Origin: JALTID01 sp027004335 [NCBI: bacterium]
GTDB taxonomy: Bacteria > JALSQH01
DNA length: 7,973 bases
Assembly: GCA_027004335.1 (NCBI GenBank)
Contig: JALTID010000186.1
Coordinates: 1-7,973 of the forward strand
Direction: 5' to 3'
Position 1 is the first letter of the stretch, and every line of letters starts with the position of its first letter. Shown one piece after another: positions 632 to 7,815 of the stretch. The position numbers and the translations under genes are program-made. Under the pieces are notes generated by a model. The model made no database searches, had not been told where the DNA came from, and saw nothing but the letters and a program-made list of their open reading frames with translations.

Positions 632-1122
632 TTTCTCTCTCAAAATATCCTGAATTTGTGGTGGACACAAGTGTGGTTTTCTACCTCAGAAGGGTGGGGC
701 TGTTGCAGGGGTTTATTAAAAATTATAAACTCTTTGTTCCATATATTGTGGTTGAAGAGGCTTTGAGGAAAGATTGTGGTGATAGGAACTACTTTAAAAA
801 ATTTTTCTCAGAGGATGCTGAGGTGATCAGATTGGGGGATCACTTTTTACATGGTGAAGACGCAGTGTTATGGGTTGCTGAGAAAAGAGAATTGCCTGCT
901 ATTATTGATGACAAAAAAGCAATAAAGAAAGCTTTCAGGAGATCTATAATTTTTACCAGCTCCCCGATGGTACCGATTCTTCTTTTTTTAAAAGGAGCCA
1001 TTTCGGAAGGTGATATGAATGATAAAATTGAAGAAATTCTTAACATGGGGTATTATGGTAAGAATGTAAGAAATTACATGCAAAAAGTGACCAATATTGT
1101 GAGAAGGGAGTCCAGACGATGA
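577..1122 (+). CDS. PIN-domain protein, probable ribonuclease (DUF3368/RISPBac-like)
   Basis: This 181-residue protein has the ordered acidic residues of a PIN fold: D30 in VVDTSV, E60 in the VPYIVVEEAL stretch, D95 in the GEDAVLWVA helix, and D111-D112 before a Lys-rich helix. PIN proteins are Mg/Mn-dependent nucleases, many of them VapC-like toxins. The GEDA...DDKKA layout and the closing GYYGKNVRNYM helix are closest to the DUF3368 type. The ATG at 577 lies inside the SNase gene in another frame and has no clear Shine-Dalgarno. GTG at 616 or 658 is possible, and conservation really begins near residue 27. No antitoxin gene (UPF0175 or AbrB-like) stands beside it in the window, so a toxin role is not supported. 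It may instead be a housekeeping RNA-processing nuclease. The stop overlaps the next start in an ATGA. Confidence 0.8.
   Translation: MAEGGKSWLQTPPVFEKIVSLSKYPEFVVDTSVVFYLRRVGLLQGFIKNYKLFVPYIVVEEALRKDCGDRNYFKKFFSEDAEVIRLGDHFLHGEDAVLWVAEKRELPAIIDDKKAIKKAFRRSIIFTSSPMVPILLFLKGAISEGDMNDKIEEILNMGYYGKNVRNYMQKVTNIVRRESRR
1106..1110 (+). promoter_or_regulatory. Ribosome binding site for the 1119 oxidoreductase gene
   Basis: GGGAG lies 8 bases before the ATG at 1119, inside the last codons of the PIN gene. It supports that start and translation coupled to the PIN gene through the ATGA overlap. Confidence 0.6.
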
Positions 1123-1997
1123 GAAAAAAAATCTGTGTTGTGGGTGGTGGAGTGGCTGGTTTTGGTGTCGCCGATGGGCTGCTTGAGAGGAATTTTACAG
1201 ACTTTACGCTGCTGGAAGGGAGACCAATTTTCCTCTACACTCTTACCTGGTTAAAATTTTCAAAAAAGAAAGGTGAAAATATCTCAGGAGAATTCTCAGG
1301 AAACGAATTTAGGGATTATCTCCTGGGGCGGGAAAGGCCAGAGGAAAATTTTATTAAGGGAAACAGGGTCTTCTATCTGGATAAGAAAAAGAAGAAACTT
1401 TACTTCTCTGATGGTAAAGAGACGGCAGATTGTGAATTTGATAAACTTATTCTTGCCACCGGTGGTGTTCCTGTTCTCTATGGGGAGTATTTATTGCCCG
1501 GTTTTAGAGGTGCAGGAATTTTTACTGCCTATCAGGTAGGTGAAATGCTGACCCACTACGACTTTTTACCAGGGGAAAAGCTTATTGTTTATGGCAGGGG
1601 TGAATACGCAGCTGAAACTGCATTACTTGCAAAGGAGTGTGGACTTGATGTAAAAATCGTTTTTTCCCATGAGCCCGATTTCCATTTAGATTTCCCTTTT
1701 TTACTGGGGAAAATAGTGAAAGTTCATGGAGGGTTAAGAGTATCCGGAGTAGATGTCAGAACCGCCGGCAATGAGGTTGAAGAATTAAATGGGGATACAC
1801 TTGTAGTAGCCGGAAAATATGTTCTGGAGAGAGGATGGAGAGAGATTGCAGGTATTAAATGGGACATTGATAAATGGCGAGGAATTTCTGATGATCCTGA
1901 TATCATACTGGTGGGAGATGCTTTTGAGCCATCATTTAATTTTGTAAGACAGTATGAAGAATCATATAAAAAAGGAATGGAGCTGGCAAATGAGTAG
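1119..1997 (+). CDS. Compact FAD/NAD(P)-binding oxidoreductase (pyridine nucleotide-disulfide oxidoreductase fold)
   Basis: The 292-residue protein carries both dinucleotide folds of this superfamily. The FAD site is GGGVAG at 9-14 with acidic E33 at the end of the second strand. LATGG is at 112-116. The second Rossmann motif YGRGEYAAETA at 158-168 is degenerate, reading GRGEYA where GxGxxG/A is expected. VGDA at 265-268 is the late FAD contact. There is no CxxC active-site pair, and the protein lacks the C-terminal dimerisation domain of full-length family members (usually above 400 residues). In Thermotoga-like genomes an NAD(P)/FAD subunit of this general kind sits beside a GlpA-like dehydrogenase and may pass its electrons on to NAD or another carrier. 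Here too the next gene is GlpA-like, overlapping by 8 bases, so a two-subunit dehydrogenase is a reasonable inference. Substrate and acceptor are unknown. Confidence 0.78.
   Translation: MRKKICVVGGGVAGFGVADGLLERNFTDFTLLEGRPIFLYTLTWLKFSKKKGENISGEFSGNEFRDYLLGRERPEENFIKGNRVFYLDKKKKKLYFSDGKETADCEFDKLILATGGVPVLYGEYLLPGFRGAGIFTAYQVGEMLTHYDFLPGEKLIVYGRGEYAAETALLAKECGLDVKIVFSHEPDFHLDFPFLLGKIVKVHGGLRVSGVDVRTAGNEVEELNGDTLVVAGKYVLERGWREIAGIKWDIDKWRGISDDPDIILVGDAFEPSFNFVRQYEESYKKGMELANE
1979..1982 (+). promoter_or_regulatory. Ribosome binding site deciding the 1990 start
   Basis: GGAG lies 7 bases before the ATG at 1990. This start gives MSSNFDVVIIGAG, the normal short lead into the FAD motif. The longer in-frame start at 1954 adds 12 residues from inside the upstream gene and lacks family support. 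Confidence 0.6.
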
Positions 1998-3426
1998 CAA
2001 TTTTGATGTGGTAATAATTGGTGCAGGGATCACAGGGACAGGCGTTGCTTATGAACTGAGCAAGAAAAAATTGAAGATTGCTCTGATTGATAAGGCCCCT
2101 TTTCCGTTTCAGGGGGCAAGCAAAGCCAACTCAGGTATTATTCATGCAGGCTATGATGATCCTCCAGGGAGCCTCAGAGCAAAGCTTGTGGTAAGAGGTA
2201 ATTTTCTTTATTCCAGATGGGCTGAGGAACTAGGGTTTGATCTAAAGAGGCCTGGTTCTATCGTGGTAGCTTTTAATGAAGAAGAACTGGAGACAATAAA
2301 AAAAGAGAAAATCCAGGGAGACGAGAGAGGTGTCCCTGGCCTGAAGATACTGGGAGGAAGAGAACTTTTTGAAATAGAACCTCTTCTTAACAGAGAGGCT
2401 ATAGCAGGTTTATATGCTCCTTCTGCAGGAGTGGTATGTCCAATGGAGGTGGTGAGTTACCTTTTTAAAGGTGCTGTAAGAAATGGCGTTGTTCCCTTTT
2501 TAAATCATAGAGTTATTGGTTTTGAAAAGGAAGGTGATATAGTAACTGCGGTGCTTATAGGCGAGGAGAAAATTCATGGTGAGATTGTCATCAATGCCTC
2601 CGGTGTATGGGGAGATGTGGTTTCTTCCATGGCGGGTATTGATAAGTATAAGATAATTCCAAGAAAAGGTGAATACATTCTTCTTGATCCCAACGAGAAA
2701 TACATGGTTAATCACATACTTTTTCCAACTCCGACAATGGTTTCCAAAGGTATTCTGGTTATTCCCACTATTACTGGAGATGTTCTTATCGGTCCAACTG
2801 CTCAGAATCTTGATGATGATCACAGGGAGGATACCTTTACAACAGAAGAGGGCTTGAAAGAGGTTATTGAAAAGGCTAGTCATATTGTTCCATCTCTCTC
2901 CACAAAACTCACTATAAAAACCTTTGCAGGGATCAGGGCCCAGCCGAATACCAATGATTTTATCATTGAGGGTTATGATGAACCTTCTAATTTTATAAAT
3001 GTGATAGGGATCAGATCCCCAGGTTTAACTTCTGCTCCTGCCATAGCAGAGTATGTGGAAGATATTGTTGAGAAAAAAATTGGGGGACTTCAGGAAGATC
3101 CTTCTGCTATTACGGAACCTTTTGTAAAACCTGATGAGGTTAAGCTTGCCCTTTCAGGTCAAGCTGGGTGGGGCTTTGCTCTCACTCCCCACCTGGATTC
3201 ACCAAGTTATCCCATGGTAGGAGCTTCTGCACAGTGGGGGATAGAAAAGGAGATTTATAATTTTACCTGTTTTACAGATAAGGGTCTTGGAGTTGATCTC
3301 TCGGGTGTTTTTCAGAATGAGCTTATTAAGTTTATTCTTTCAAGAGGCTTTAAAAAAGAAGATGTTTGCTACCGTTTCCCTGGATCATGGCAGGTCATTG
3401 AAGGAAAATGTGGGGGAGAAAAATGA
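1990..3426 (+). CDS. FAD-dependent dehydrogenase of the GlpA/DAO family with atypical C-terminal domain
   Basis: This protein has 478 residues. The DAO fold is clear: GAGITG at 11-16 binds FAD, D34 closes the second strand, and NSGIIHAGY at 47-55 followed by DDPPGSLRAK is a signature shared by anaerobic glycerol-3-phosphate dehydrogenases and L-2-hydroxyglutarate oxidases. AGIRAQP (R316) and GIRSPGLTSAPA at 340-351 form the usual late FAD and substrate loop. Family members of the GlpA type normally end in a BFD-like [2Fe-2S] domain with four cysteines. Here, from about residue 380 to the end, that domain is absent. Its place is taken by about 95 residues I do not recognise, with only three cysteines (C427, C460, C474). 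The protein probably works with the preceding oxidoreductase. Glycerol 3-phosphate is one candidate substrate, but there is no glycerol kinase nearby and the family oxidises several 2-hydroxy acids. The stop overlaps znuA by ATGA. Confidence 0.85.
   Translation: MSSNFDVVIIGAGITGTGVAYELSKKKLKIALIDKAPFPFQGASKANSGIIHAGYDDPPGSLRAKLVVRGNFLYSRWAEELGFDLKRPGSIVVAFNEEELETIKKEKIQGDERGVPGLKILGGRELFEIEPLLNREAIAGLYAPSAGVVCPMEVVSYLFKGAVRNGVVPFLNHRVIGFEKEGDIVTAVLIGEEKIHGEIVINASGVWGDVVSSMAGIDKYKIIPRKGEYILLDPNEKYMVNHILFPTPTMVSKGILVIPTITGDVLIGPTAQNLDDDHREDTFTTEEGLKEVIEKASHIVPSLSTKLTIKTFAGIRAQPNTNDFIIEGYDEPSNFINVIGIRSPGLTSAPAIAEYVEDIVEKKIGGLQEDPSAITEPFVKPDEVKLALSGQAGWGFALTPHLDSPSYPMVGASAQWGIEKEIYNFTCFTDKGLGVDLSGVFQNELIKFILSRGFKKEDVCYRFPGSWQVIEGKCGGEK
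3412..3418 (+). promoter_or_regulatory. Ribosome binding site for the znuA-like gene
   Basis: GGGGGAG lies 4 bases before the ATG at 3423, within the end of the GlpA-like gene. It favours 3423 over the in-frame ATG at 3408, which would add five residues before the signal peptide. Confidence 0.6.
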
Positions 3427-5851: not shown

Positions 5852-7375
5852 CTATTTTACAAGTTTATCCCAGCGTTCAATAATTTTATCTGTGGCATAT
5901 GAGGAGAAAGCCATTATTGATTCTTGTGGATTCACTCCAAGAGATGTGGGGAATATGCTCGCGTCAATGATGAAAAGGTTATTTACCTCGTGCATCTCCA
6001 GATTTTCATCTACCACCGAATCCTTTGGATCTGAGCCCATCTTTGCTGTTCCCATAGGGTGAAAAGCAGAGAGCTCCAGCATATCTGGCTTGAGTTTGAT
6101 TGTATCAATGGAGCTTAACTTAGATGGGGATGTGATTTCTTCCAGAGAAAAAATAGGTGGATAGATCTTCTTTGCACCTGCGGCAAAATAGACCTCACTG
6201 GCGATTTTTATCGCTCTCCTAAATTTCTCCAGATCTTCTTTATTCATTTTATAAGTGATAAAAGGAGCGTTTCCAAATGGTTTAACTTTTCCTGAGGAAG
6301 AATCATGTACCATTATCCCGAATCCTGCGAGATGGTTATAATCAAGCATCATTTTTTTTATGCCTTTTCCAAAAGCAGGTAGGGCAATAGAGAGCATTGA
6401 AGGAGGTATCCAGAATCCTTCAAAGATAATCCCTTCATTAGAGAATTCATCCACACAGTAAGCTTGTGGGATCCCCTTCCAGCTTTCCAGATTCTCTTCA
6501 AAGTACCCCATGACCTTTGCAGCTGGGTGTATCCTCAAATTTTTACCCAGCCATCCACTAGATTTCCCTATTTTATTTTTTTGAAGCAGAAGGGGGGTCA
6601 AGATAGCACCTGCTGCAACAATTACCACTGGAGCGTTTATCTCAAATTTATAATTTGAAGGTTCAACCCCATATTTCCCCTTCAGGAAGTAGCCTGAAAT
6701 TCCTGCGGCCTTTGGTCCTTTTGTGATAATTTTTTCTGCATGGGCATAGGTATAGTAGGTTGCTCCAGATTGCTCGGAGAGAGGAATGTATGTAACATGC
6801 ATAGCCTGTTTTGCATCAATGGGACATCCAAAGGGGCATAGGCCGCTTCCTTCACAGTTTTTCATATTTCTTTTTAATGTGAATCCATGAAATCCCAATT
6901 TTTCTGCACCAATGGCAAAAAGCTGATTGTTTCTCCCCATTAGTTCCCATGGTACTTCCATTGTATGTGTTATTTCCTCAACTTCTTTGAAGTAAGGTTC
7001 TAACTTCTCAGATGTTATGGTTTTGATTCCATAGTGTTCCTGCCATTCTCTTATTACCTCATCTGGTGTTCTGAACATTGTTCCAGAGTTTATGGTGGTT
7101 GTACCTCCAAGAGTTTTACCAAGTGGGATCACTATCCCCGTATTGCCAAGCGATAAAATTGAACCTGCATCTCTATACATCAGCTTTACCATTTCATAAG
7201 CATTCCCGTTGAAATGTTCTTTTGTAAAGTGCCCACCTTCCTCCACAATGATAACTTTTTTGCCTGCTTTTGCGAGGCGATAGGCTGCTGGTGCTCCTCC
7301 TGCCCCTGAACCTATGATTACTACATCTGCTTCTAATTTGAGATCCTTGTCTATTTTTCTTCCATCTATGATCAT
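5852..7375 (-). CDS. GMC-family FAD oxidoreductase with three-cysteine (putative Fe-S) motif
   Basis: This 507-residue enzyme belongs to the glucose-methanol-choline family, which oxidises alcohols, sugars or sugar acids. GSGAGG at 22-27 and E45 bind FAD, LGGTTTINSG at 89-98 is the GMC signature, H439 in HPMGT is the catalytic base, and N482 in GVNPQES is the second active-site residue. C174, C180 and C184 lie in NCEGSGLCPFGCP. A similar Cys-rich loop in the bacterial FAD glucose dehydrogenase alpha subunit holds a 3Fe-4S cluster, so an Fe-S centre and a dehydrogenase rather than an oxidase are inferred. No Tat or Sec signal is seen. The ATG at 7375 overlaps the preceding stop (TGATG) and has a strong Shine-Dalgarno. 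The small protein upstream is the likely partner, and the FCD regulator suggests substrate-induced expression. The substrate is unknown. Confidence 0.87.
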   Translation of the reverse strand: MIIDGRKIDKDLKLEADVVIIGSGAGGAPAAYRLAKAGKKVIIVEEGGHFTKEHFNGNAYEMVKLMYRDAGSILSLGNTGIVIPLGKTLGGTTTINSGTMFRTPDEVIREWQEHYGIKTITSEKLEPYFKEVEEITHTMEVPWELMGRNNQLFAIGAEKLGFHGFTLKRNMKNCEGSGLCPFGCPIDAKQAMHVTYIPLSEQSGATYYTYAHAEKIITKGPKAAGISGYFLKGKYGVEPSNYKFEINAPVVIVAAGAILTPLLLQKNKIGKSSGWLGKNLRIHPAAKVMGYFEENLESWKGIPQAYCVDEFSNEGIIFEGFWIPPSMLSIALPAFGKGIKKMMLDYNHLAGFGIMVHDSSSGKVKPFGNAPFITYKMNKEDLEKFRRAIKIASEVYFAAGAKKIYPPIFSLEEITSPSKLSSIDTIKLKPDMLELSAFHPMGTAKMGSDPKDSVVDENLEMHEVNNLFIIDASIFPTSLGVNPQESIMAFSSYATDKIIERWDKLVK

Positions 7376-7815
7376 CAGGCGACCTCCCTCTTTTTATGAT
7401 AAAACCTGTCATAGGGATAACCTATTCTCTGAAGAACCTCTGGTATGGAATAGTAATAGGGTAATATTAGCATTGATGCCATTATGTAGAGACCACGAAG
7501 AGAAAACATAGGGCTGTCGTGAAGTTTTTTCATTATCTTGTACCTTGTTTCAAAGGAGAGGGAGGAAAAGGTCCTGTATTTGAAAAATAGCAATGGTAAA
7601 ATGAAGCTTATGAAAAAAAGAAGTATTCTTATGAAAAACCTATTAGTTTTACCCACTAAAAGAAAAAATGTGTCAGCTTCTTCCAGTATTTCTCTCTTGG
7701 GTATTTCAACAGGTATTGTTTCGTCATAGGGGGCAACAACTTCTGCAATTGCAATAATTGTTCTGCAGGAGTGTTTTTTTACGAATCTGCCTTTAAATTC
7801 CTTGCAGATTTTCAT
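7375..7815 (-). CDS. Small membrane protein resembling gluconate 2-dehydrogenase subunit 3 / GMC gamma subunit
   Basis: This 146-residue protein is only distantly recognisable. Residues 16-30 (SCRTIIAIAEVVAPY) and the C-terminal half (FSSLSFETRYKIMKKL, later an LILPYYY stretch, PEV and IGYP) follow the pattern of gluconate 2-dehydrogenase subunit 3. That family accompanies GMC dehydrogenases as a maturation or export partner. A hydrophobic segment at 62-78 is a probable membrane span. The twin-arginine leader common in that family is absent, so it may hold the GMC enzyme at the inner face of the membrane instead of carrying it out through Tat. It lies directly before the GMC gene, its stop sharing one base with that start, which supports the pairing. 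The start at 7815 has an excellent Shine-Dalgarno. A wholly different function cannot be excluded. Confidence 0.62.
   Translation of the reverse strand: MKICKEFKGRFVKKHSCRTIIAIAEVVAPYDETIPVEIPKREILEEADTFFLLVGKTNRFFIRILLFFISFILPLLFFKYRTFSSLSFETRYKIMKKLHDSPMFSLRGLYIMASMLILPYYYSIPEVLQRIGYPYDRFYHKKREVA
7382..7388 (-). promoter_or_regulatory. Ribosome binding site for the GMC gene
   Basis: Read on the minus strand this is GGGAGGT, its last G 7 bases before the ATG at 7375. It is the strongest Shine-Dalgarno in the window and lies inside the small-subunit gene. Confidence 0.65.

Follow-up and report, generated by a model that had tools for sequence, protein, structure and literature searches.

A cysteine-less, probably BFD-derived domain ends a GlpA-like dehydrogenase paired with a shortened NADH-oxidase-like protein

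The window (the whole 7,973-nucleotide stretch of DNA analysed here) encodes a GlpA-like FAD dehydrogenase whose C-terminal tail is most likely a BFD domain that has lost its four cysteines, because it aligns column by column with BFD domains in a register that scores above nearly all windows of real proteins. The original prediction took BFD to have been replaced by an unrecognised domain, a view that gives way to the alignment of the tail with the BFD domains of 22 close homologues and to the register test. It also held that electrons leave the enzyme by another route; since the cysteines are gone and the partner subunit is altered, this is probably so, although not through a different domain having replaced BFD. 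Judged from the sequences, it is rather likely that the two genes represent an Fe-S-free, and probably NAD-free, branch of the GlpTk-NOX-MOX type in which the cysteine-less BFD domain is kept for docking or structure.

Results

The dehydrogenase gene and its active site

1990..3426, plus strand: GlpA/GlpO-like FAD dehydrogenase of 478 aa with a likely ATG start at 1990; Pfam DAO
2143..2145, plus strand: His52, which aligns to the catalytic base of Mycoplasma GlpO, His51 (4x9m)

The gene lies in a longer frame (ORF 1954..3426) that is intact and that contains all four tail strings quoted in the original prediction. The Pfam DAO domain matches across residues 6-357 (8.6e-70) and ends near residue 357. 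Both the closest solved relative among PDB sequences, the Mycoplasma glycerophosphate oxidase 4x9m (7.3e-52), and the top NCBIfam match, type 2 glycerol-3-phosphate oxidase, point to GlpO, but the NCBIfam score of 302 bits is under the GlpO cut-off of 460, and the 4x9m chain ends about 24 residues past the matched part and so has no such tail. The FAD motifs are kept, and Lys253, Arg316 and Ser343, which we presume to be glycerol-3-phosphate active-site residues, are invariant in five aligned rows. The match of His52 to His51, for which a chain numbering offset of 34 was derived by hand, places it on the residue suggested as the base of Mycoplasma GlpO in the excerpted text of PMC10726252. Oxidation of glycerol-3-phosphate is presumed from the retained active-site residues; with His52 acting as base, the subunit would oxidise this substrate, or one closely resembling it, at FAD.

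As predicted, the frame runs into an ATGA overlap with znuA, the stop TGA at 3424-3426 overlapping an in-frame ATG at 3423 that is the sixth codon of the ORF listed from 3408. The tail is not a frameshift artefact, as had also been argued, because the same in-frame tail is found in five other genomes. The znuABC genes lie 3' of the GlpA-like gene in the window and in its close relative L034 and are absent there in L031-L033; a zinc link through znuABC was dropped for this reason, and the znuA neighbour is uninformative for tail function.

Relatives and distribution of the tail

A search of genome contigs found 16 loci, four with the same tail: L031 from a MAG of Deltaproteobacteria (carried in the tree as Myxococcota), L032 and L033 from Spirochaetota MAGs, and L034 on the same contig as in G001, the window's family mate. 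Eleven of the remaining 12 carry BFD, and the other, L044, is split over two frames and was left unread. A search of 59 relatives added seven BFD homologues (L003-L009), and a survey of Spirochaetota added a sixth tail member (L055, genome G318). Among the proteins whose C-termini were compared, a check that had been proposed, six have the tail and 22 have BFD.

Counting the window's own, the cysteine-less tail occurs in three bacterial groups, with five relatives in other genomes. It was present in both genomes of the window's phylum (window included), in 2 of 392 genomes from the L032 phylum and 1 of 377 from the L031 phylum, and in 2 of 386 relatives surveyed. In the order of L033, five of eight genomes match: three with the whole tail, one with a 51-position remnant and one with a weak 24-position match. 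The family looks rare and scattered in the samples surveyed. Among viral contigs no relative was found with either alignment, and 356 plasmid records match, none with a single place covering 80% of the query.

Two short matches were noted by the way. In L056 (G833:C126, about 3238-3390) a short remnant, seen by eye, matches the L033 tail; before it, in another frame, comes sequence resembling the beginning of the L033 partner gene, as would be left by a deletion of most of the two-gene operon. L057 (G831:C198:19281-19352), which lies in a short open frame, matches the tail profile weakly over 24 positions (E 9e-4) and may be chance or another remnant.

A tree of the DAO part was built from six tail-family rows, 22 BFD rows and, as outgroup, eight rows without BFD; the weaker DAO relatives L014, L018 and L020-L030 were left out of tree and alignments, as was L066, a different BFD-bearing DAO protein. 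The six tail members form one clade (100/99), and they and the 22 BFD rows separate from the eight rows without BFD (100/100); the tree gives no firm position of the six-member clade among the BFD rows. Because G060, G061 and G318 hold BFD-bearing paralogues elsewhere in the genome, the cysteine-less form is a separate lineage there. No Fer2_BFD match was found in G000, G001 or G059, and absences in G000, which is 80% complete, are weak.

Loss of the four BFD cysteines

3169..3399, plus strand: cysteine-less, probably BFD-derived tail domain, residues 394-470, from gap-free alignment over the BFD core and register tests
3184..3186, plus strand: Thr399, first BFD cysteine position (Thr in 6/6; Cys in 22/22 BFD relatives)
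3190..3192, plus strand: His401, second BFD cysteine position (His, Gln or Asn across the six)
3268..3270, plus strand: Cys427, sole invariant tail cysteine, off the BFD ligand positions (Arg, Phe, Lys or Met in the BFD group)
3295..3297, plus strand: Asp436, third BFD cysteine position (Asp in 6/6; Cys in 22/22 BFD relatives)
3310..3312, plus strand: Phe441, fourth BFD cysteine position (Phe in 6/6; Cys in 20/22 and Asp in 2/22 BFD relatives)

The window tail has three cysteines, at residues 427, 460 and 474, and these form no CxC or CxxxxC pair, just as first noticed. In the alignment none of the six tail-family members retains any of the four BFD cysteines, and the tail should hold no BFD [2Fe-2S] cluster. 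A disulfide between Cys150 and Cys427 was considered and dropped, as Cys150 has no family-specific status in the alignment.

A profile search of the tail alone had been proposed, and it returned no confident match to BFD or to any other domain. Nothing convincing was found among Pfam, NCBIfam or PDB sequences: the window tail has no NCBIfam match and a best Pfam match to an unrelated family (E 0.23), and five tails searched singly against Pfam at E up to 10 gave none to Fer2_BFD (PF04324), the best being DUF5723 (0.072). The canonical proteins L035 and L041 match Fer2_BFD at 1.3e-14 and 2.5e-15. As a separate observation, Asp replaces the fourth cysteine in the BFD tails of L004 and L008 (CQGAFD, CQGSFD), which keep their Fer2_BFD match; these are possible three-Cys/one-Asp clusters or possible first steps of cysteine loss.

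Descent of the tail from BFD

In a MAFFT alignment of the six tail-family and 22 BFD proteins, the tail occupies the same place as BFD, is of nearly equal length and sits on it gap-free from residue 394 past 441, with W394 on the BFD Tyr/Phe, GLG on GMG and GS on GS. With the register fixed, the family profile scored z 4.9, and none of 20,000 column shuffles was as high. Among 546 windows of real aligned proteins, two scored as high over the 58 gap-free columns and none over the full 76. When each tail was scored singly against 7,892 windows from long open frames, between 5 and 41 windows did as well, depending on the sequence; these decoys are stop-to-stop frames of more than 250 codons and not all real genes. 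The register was first spotted by eye, which favours it; for the best score over offsets, p was only 0.029.

Local comparison does not prove tail-BFD homology. A free local search of the tail against BFD did no better than shuffles, of which 831 of 2000 scored as high without gaps and 137 of 300 with gaps. The hhalign score of 18.7 exceeded all 200 shuffles (mean 10.8) and all 34 partner windows, but of 97 decoy windows slid over these proteins 17 gave 20.0 to 21.1, every one of them within the DAO part. A tail-only AlphaFold2 model made without BFD rows was of low confidence (pLDDT 48.5) and has helices at 407-416, 419-426 and 437-451, which we take to fall roughly where the BFD helices lie. 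The full-length prediction from five rows was too poor for use (pLDDT 41.9), and the low-confidence tail-only model gave no match in Foldseek and nothing for VIA-align either.

These results bear on whether BFD gave way, at its own position, to an unrelated new domain that brings another partner or cofactor. Such a replacement would account for the absent family matches, for a local profile score no higher than that of some decoy windows and for the empty Foldseek search, but it is unlikely given the position and length of the tail, its gap-free fit with matching glycine motifs, the register test and the predicted helix positions. As a first choice it is set aside because of the BFD register, despite the absent family matches. 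Descent of the tail from a BFD domain is, we believe, well supported by the alignment and its register.

Conservation within the tail

Tail identity to the window sequence is 51, 41, 40 and 38%, against 66, 61, 60 and 54% for the whole protein. Even so, 24 of 112 tail columns are invariant in five rows, and 20 of the 43 family-specific invariant positions of the whole protein fall in the tail. Such conservation could reflect a rebuilt BFD fold holding another ligand at the old cluster site, either a metal or a flavin lying between the subunits, through the invariant Asp403, Asp430, Asp436, Tyr423, Asn424 and Cys427, and FAD-FMN-Fe-S opine dehydrogenases with an interface FMN are described in excerpts of PMC4575208. 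We regard this as improbable, and a little more so than replacement by an unrelated domain, because, of the four old ligand sites, one differs between members (His/Gln/Asn) and another is Phe, and because no known binding motif was recognised in the tail. A decayed, functionless BFD remnant, which might be read from the lower tail identity and from the apparent operon remnant L056 in a related genome, is very improbable, since the six sequences, though diverged and drawn from three groups, share a single unchanging residue at each of three of the four former cysteine positions and strictly preserve other family-specific residues.

The NOX-like partner and the iron-sulfur genes

1119..1997, plus strand: NADH-oxidase-like (Pyr_redox_2) partner, 292 aa, shortened (Pfam Pyr_redox_2, 1e-12), overlapping the start of the GlpA-like gene

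The partner lies directly upstream of the GlpA-like gene in all six tail loci and is homologous to the canonical NOX of L035 (1e-09). It keeps the FAD motif GGGxxG and a GDA motif. In all six loci it has neither QCIH nor the third glycine of GxGxxG, the NAD motif, and it stops about 100 residues before the end of the L035 NOX. Among the BFD homologues a NOX-like gene lies directly downstream in 20 of 22; these canonical NOX proteins were picked by the motif QC[IV]H.GFG, so that its presence in them is circular (20 found, 15 aligned).

No DUF1667 iron-sulfur gene lies beside the partner in the tail loci, and a DUF1667 match is absent from genomes G000, G001, G059 and G318, the absence being weak for the incomplete G000. 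In G060 and G061 the DUF1667 hits are on the contigs of the BFD paralogue, and a separately encoded carrier is possible in these two (BFD and DUF1667) and in G318 (BFD). A DUF1667-like gene was found by motif in at least 10 canonical BFD loci and confirmed by Pfam for L035, whose DUF1667 protein has a sub-threshold Fe4S4-like start. A glycerol kinase match is present in all six tail genomes, five over the cut-off, that in G000 being only a 52-position fragment.

Discussion

The system most similar to that of the window is GlpTk-NOX-MOX, described from Thermococcus kodakarensis in excerpts of PMC11962113, in which Thermotoga and Clostridium are also placed in the GlpTk group. The window's DAO subunit groups with BFD-bearing homologues and adjoins a NOX-like gene. 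We infer from gene order and taxa, the tree holding no named GlpTk protein, that these homologues are GlpTk, and the DUF1667 protein of the canonical loci is taken to be the MOX of PMC11962113. The canonical relatives have a BFD tail, a full-length downstream NOX with QCIH and the NAD motif and, in at least 10 loci, a DUF1667-like gene; in contrast, the window type has a cysteine-less tail, a shorter NOX upstream and no DUF1667. It is rather likely that the window pair are the two subunits of an FAD enzyme belonging to the GlpTk-NOX-MOX type of glycerol-3-phosphate dehydrogenase, one that would have shed its iron-sulfur parts. The former BFD domain would then be kept most likely against the short NOX-like partner, and electrons would pass from flavin to flavin, or straight from flavin, to an acceptor such as quinone, ETF or another carrier, on a path that may bypass NAD and the clusters of BFD and DUF1667.

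A GlpA-like catalytic subunit without the four C-terminal cysteines has a counterpart in the glycerol-3-phosphate dehydrogenase of Sulfolobus acidocaldarius, whose C-terminus is reported as different and whose partner is CoxG (excerpts of PMC11962113); the two tails are likened by description only. According to the same excerpts, the Sulfolobus enzyme differs in being archaeal, in belonging to the GlpA and not the GlpTk cluster, and in being CoxG-anchored without B and C subunits. Besides that report, no described cysteine-less bacterial GlpA of the tail-family kind was found among the open-licence papers searched. The dye-linked opine and D-hydroxyproline dehydrogenases (OdhABC) likewise join a DAO-type and a second FAD subunit in one complex, but differ in that they have FMN as well as [2Fe-2S] and carry binding motifs for the cluster on their alpha and gamma subunits, in the excerpted text of PMC4575208.

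More speculatively, a ferredoxin domain may have turned cofactor-free or differently liganded alongside the loss of NAD and Fe-S from its partner, giving an all-flavin branch across unrelated phyla in which the old cluster site (Thr399, Asp403, Asp430, Asp436 and Cys427) might bind another ligand or the partner's flavin; we hold this as a tentative possibility that is rather doubtful as it stands. The Fe-S-free reading of the pair would itself give a clear example of a redox domain outliving its redox centre while the partner subunit changed alongside. It would also add one more electron exit for glycerol-3-phosphate to the routes in the excerpted list of PMC11962113, namely GlpD, GlpO, GlpABC, GlpA-SdhBCD, GlpA-CoxG and GlpTk-NOX-MOX, and it warns against crediting every GlpA-like gene with a cluster.

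Other genes in the window

The window's lineage is poorly sampled, its phylum being represented in the collection searched by two genomes only (G000 and G001). Between a nuclease gene and the partner gene, positions 577-1122 encode a PIN-like protein (Pfam PIN_4, E 0.013, under the cut-off), and a similar ORF lies at the same place in L034. A GMC oxidoreductase (PF00732/PF05199) is encoded at 5852-7815 on the minus strand, with a small unrecognised protein of 146 aa directly upstream of it, and both are also found in L034.
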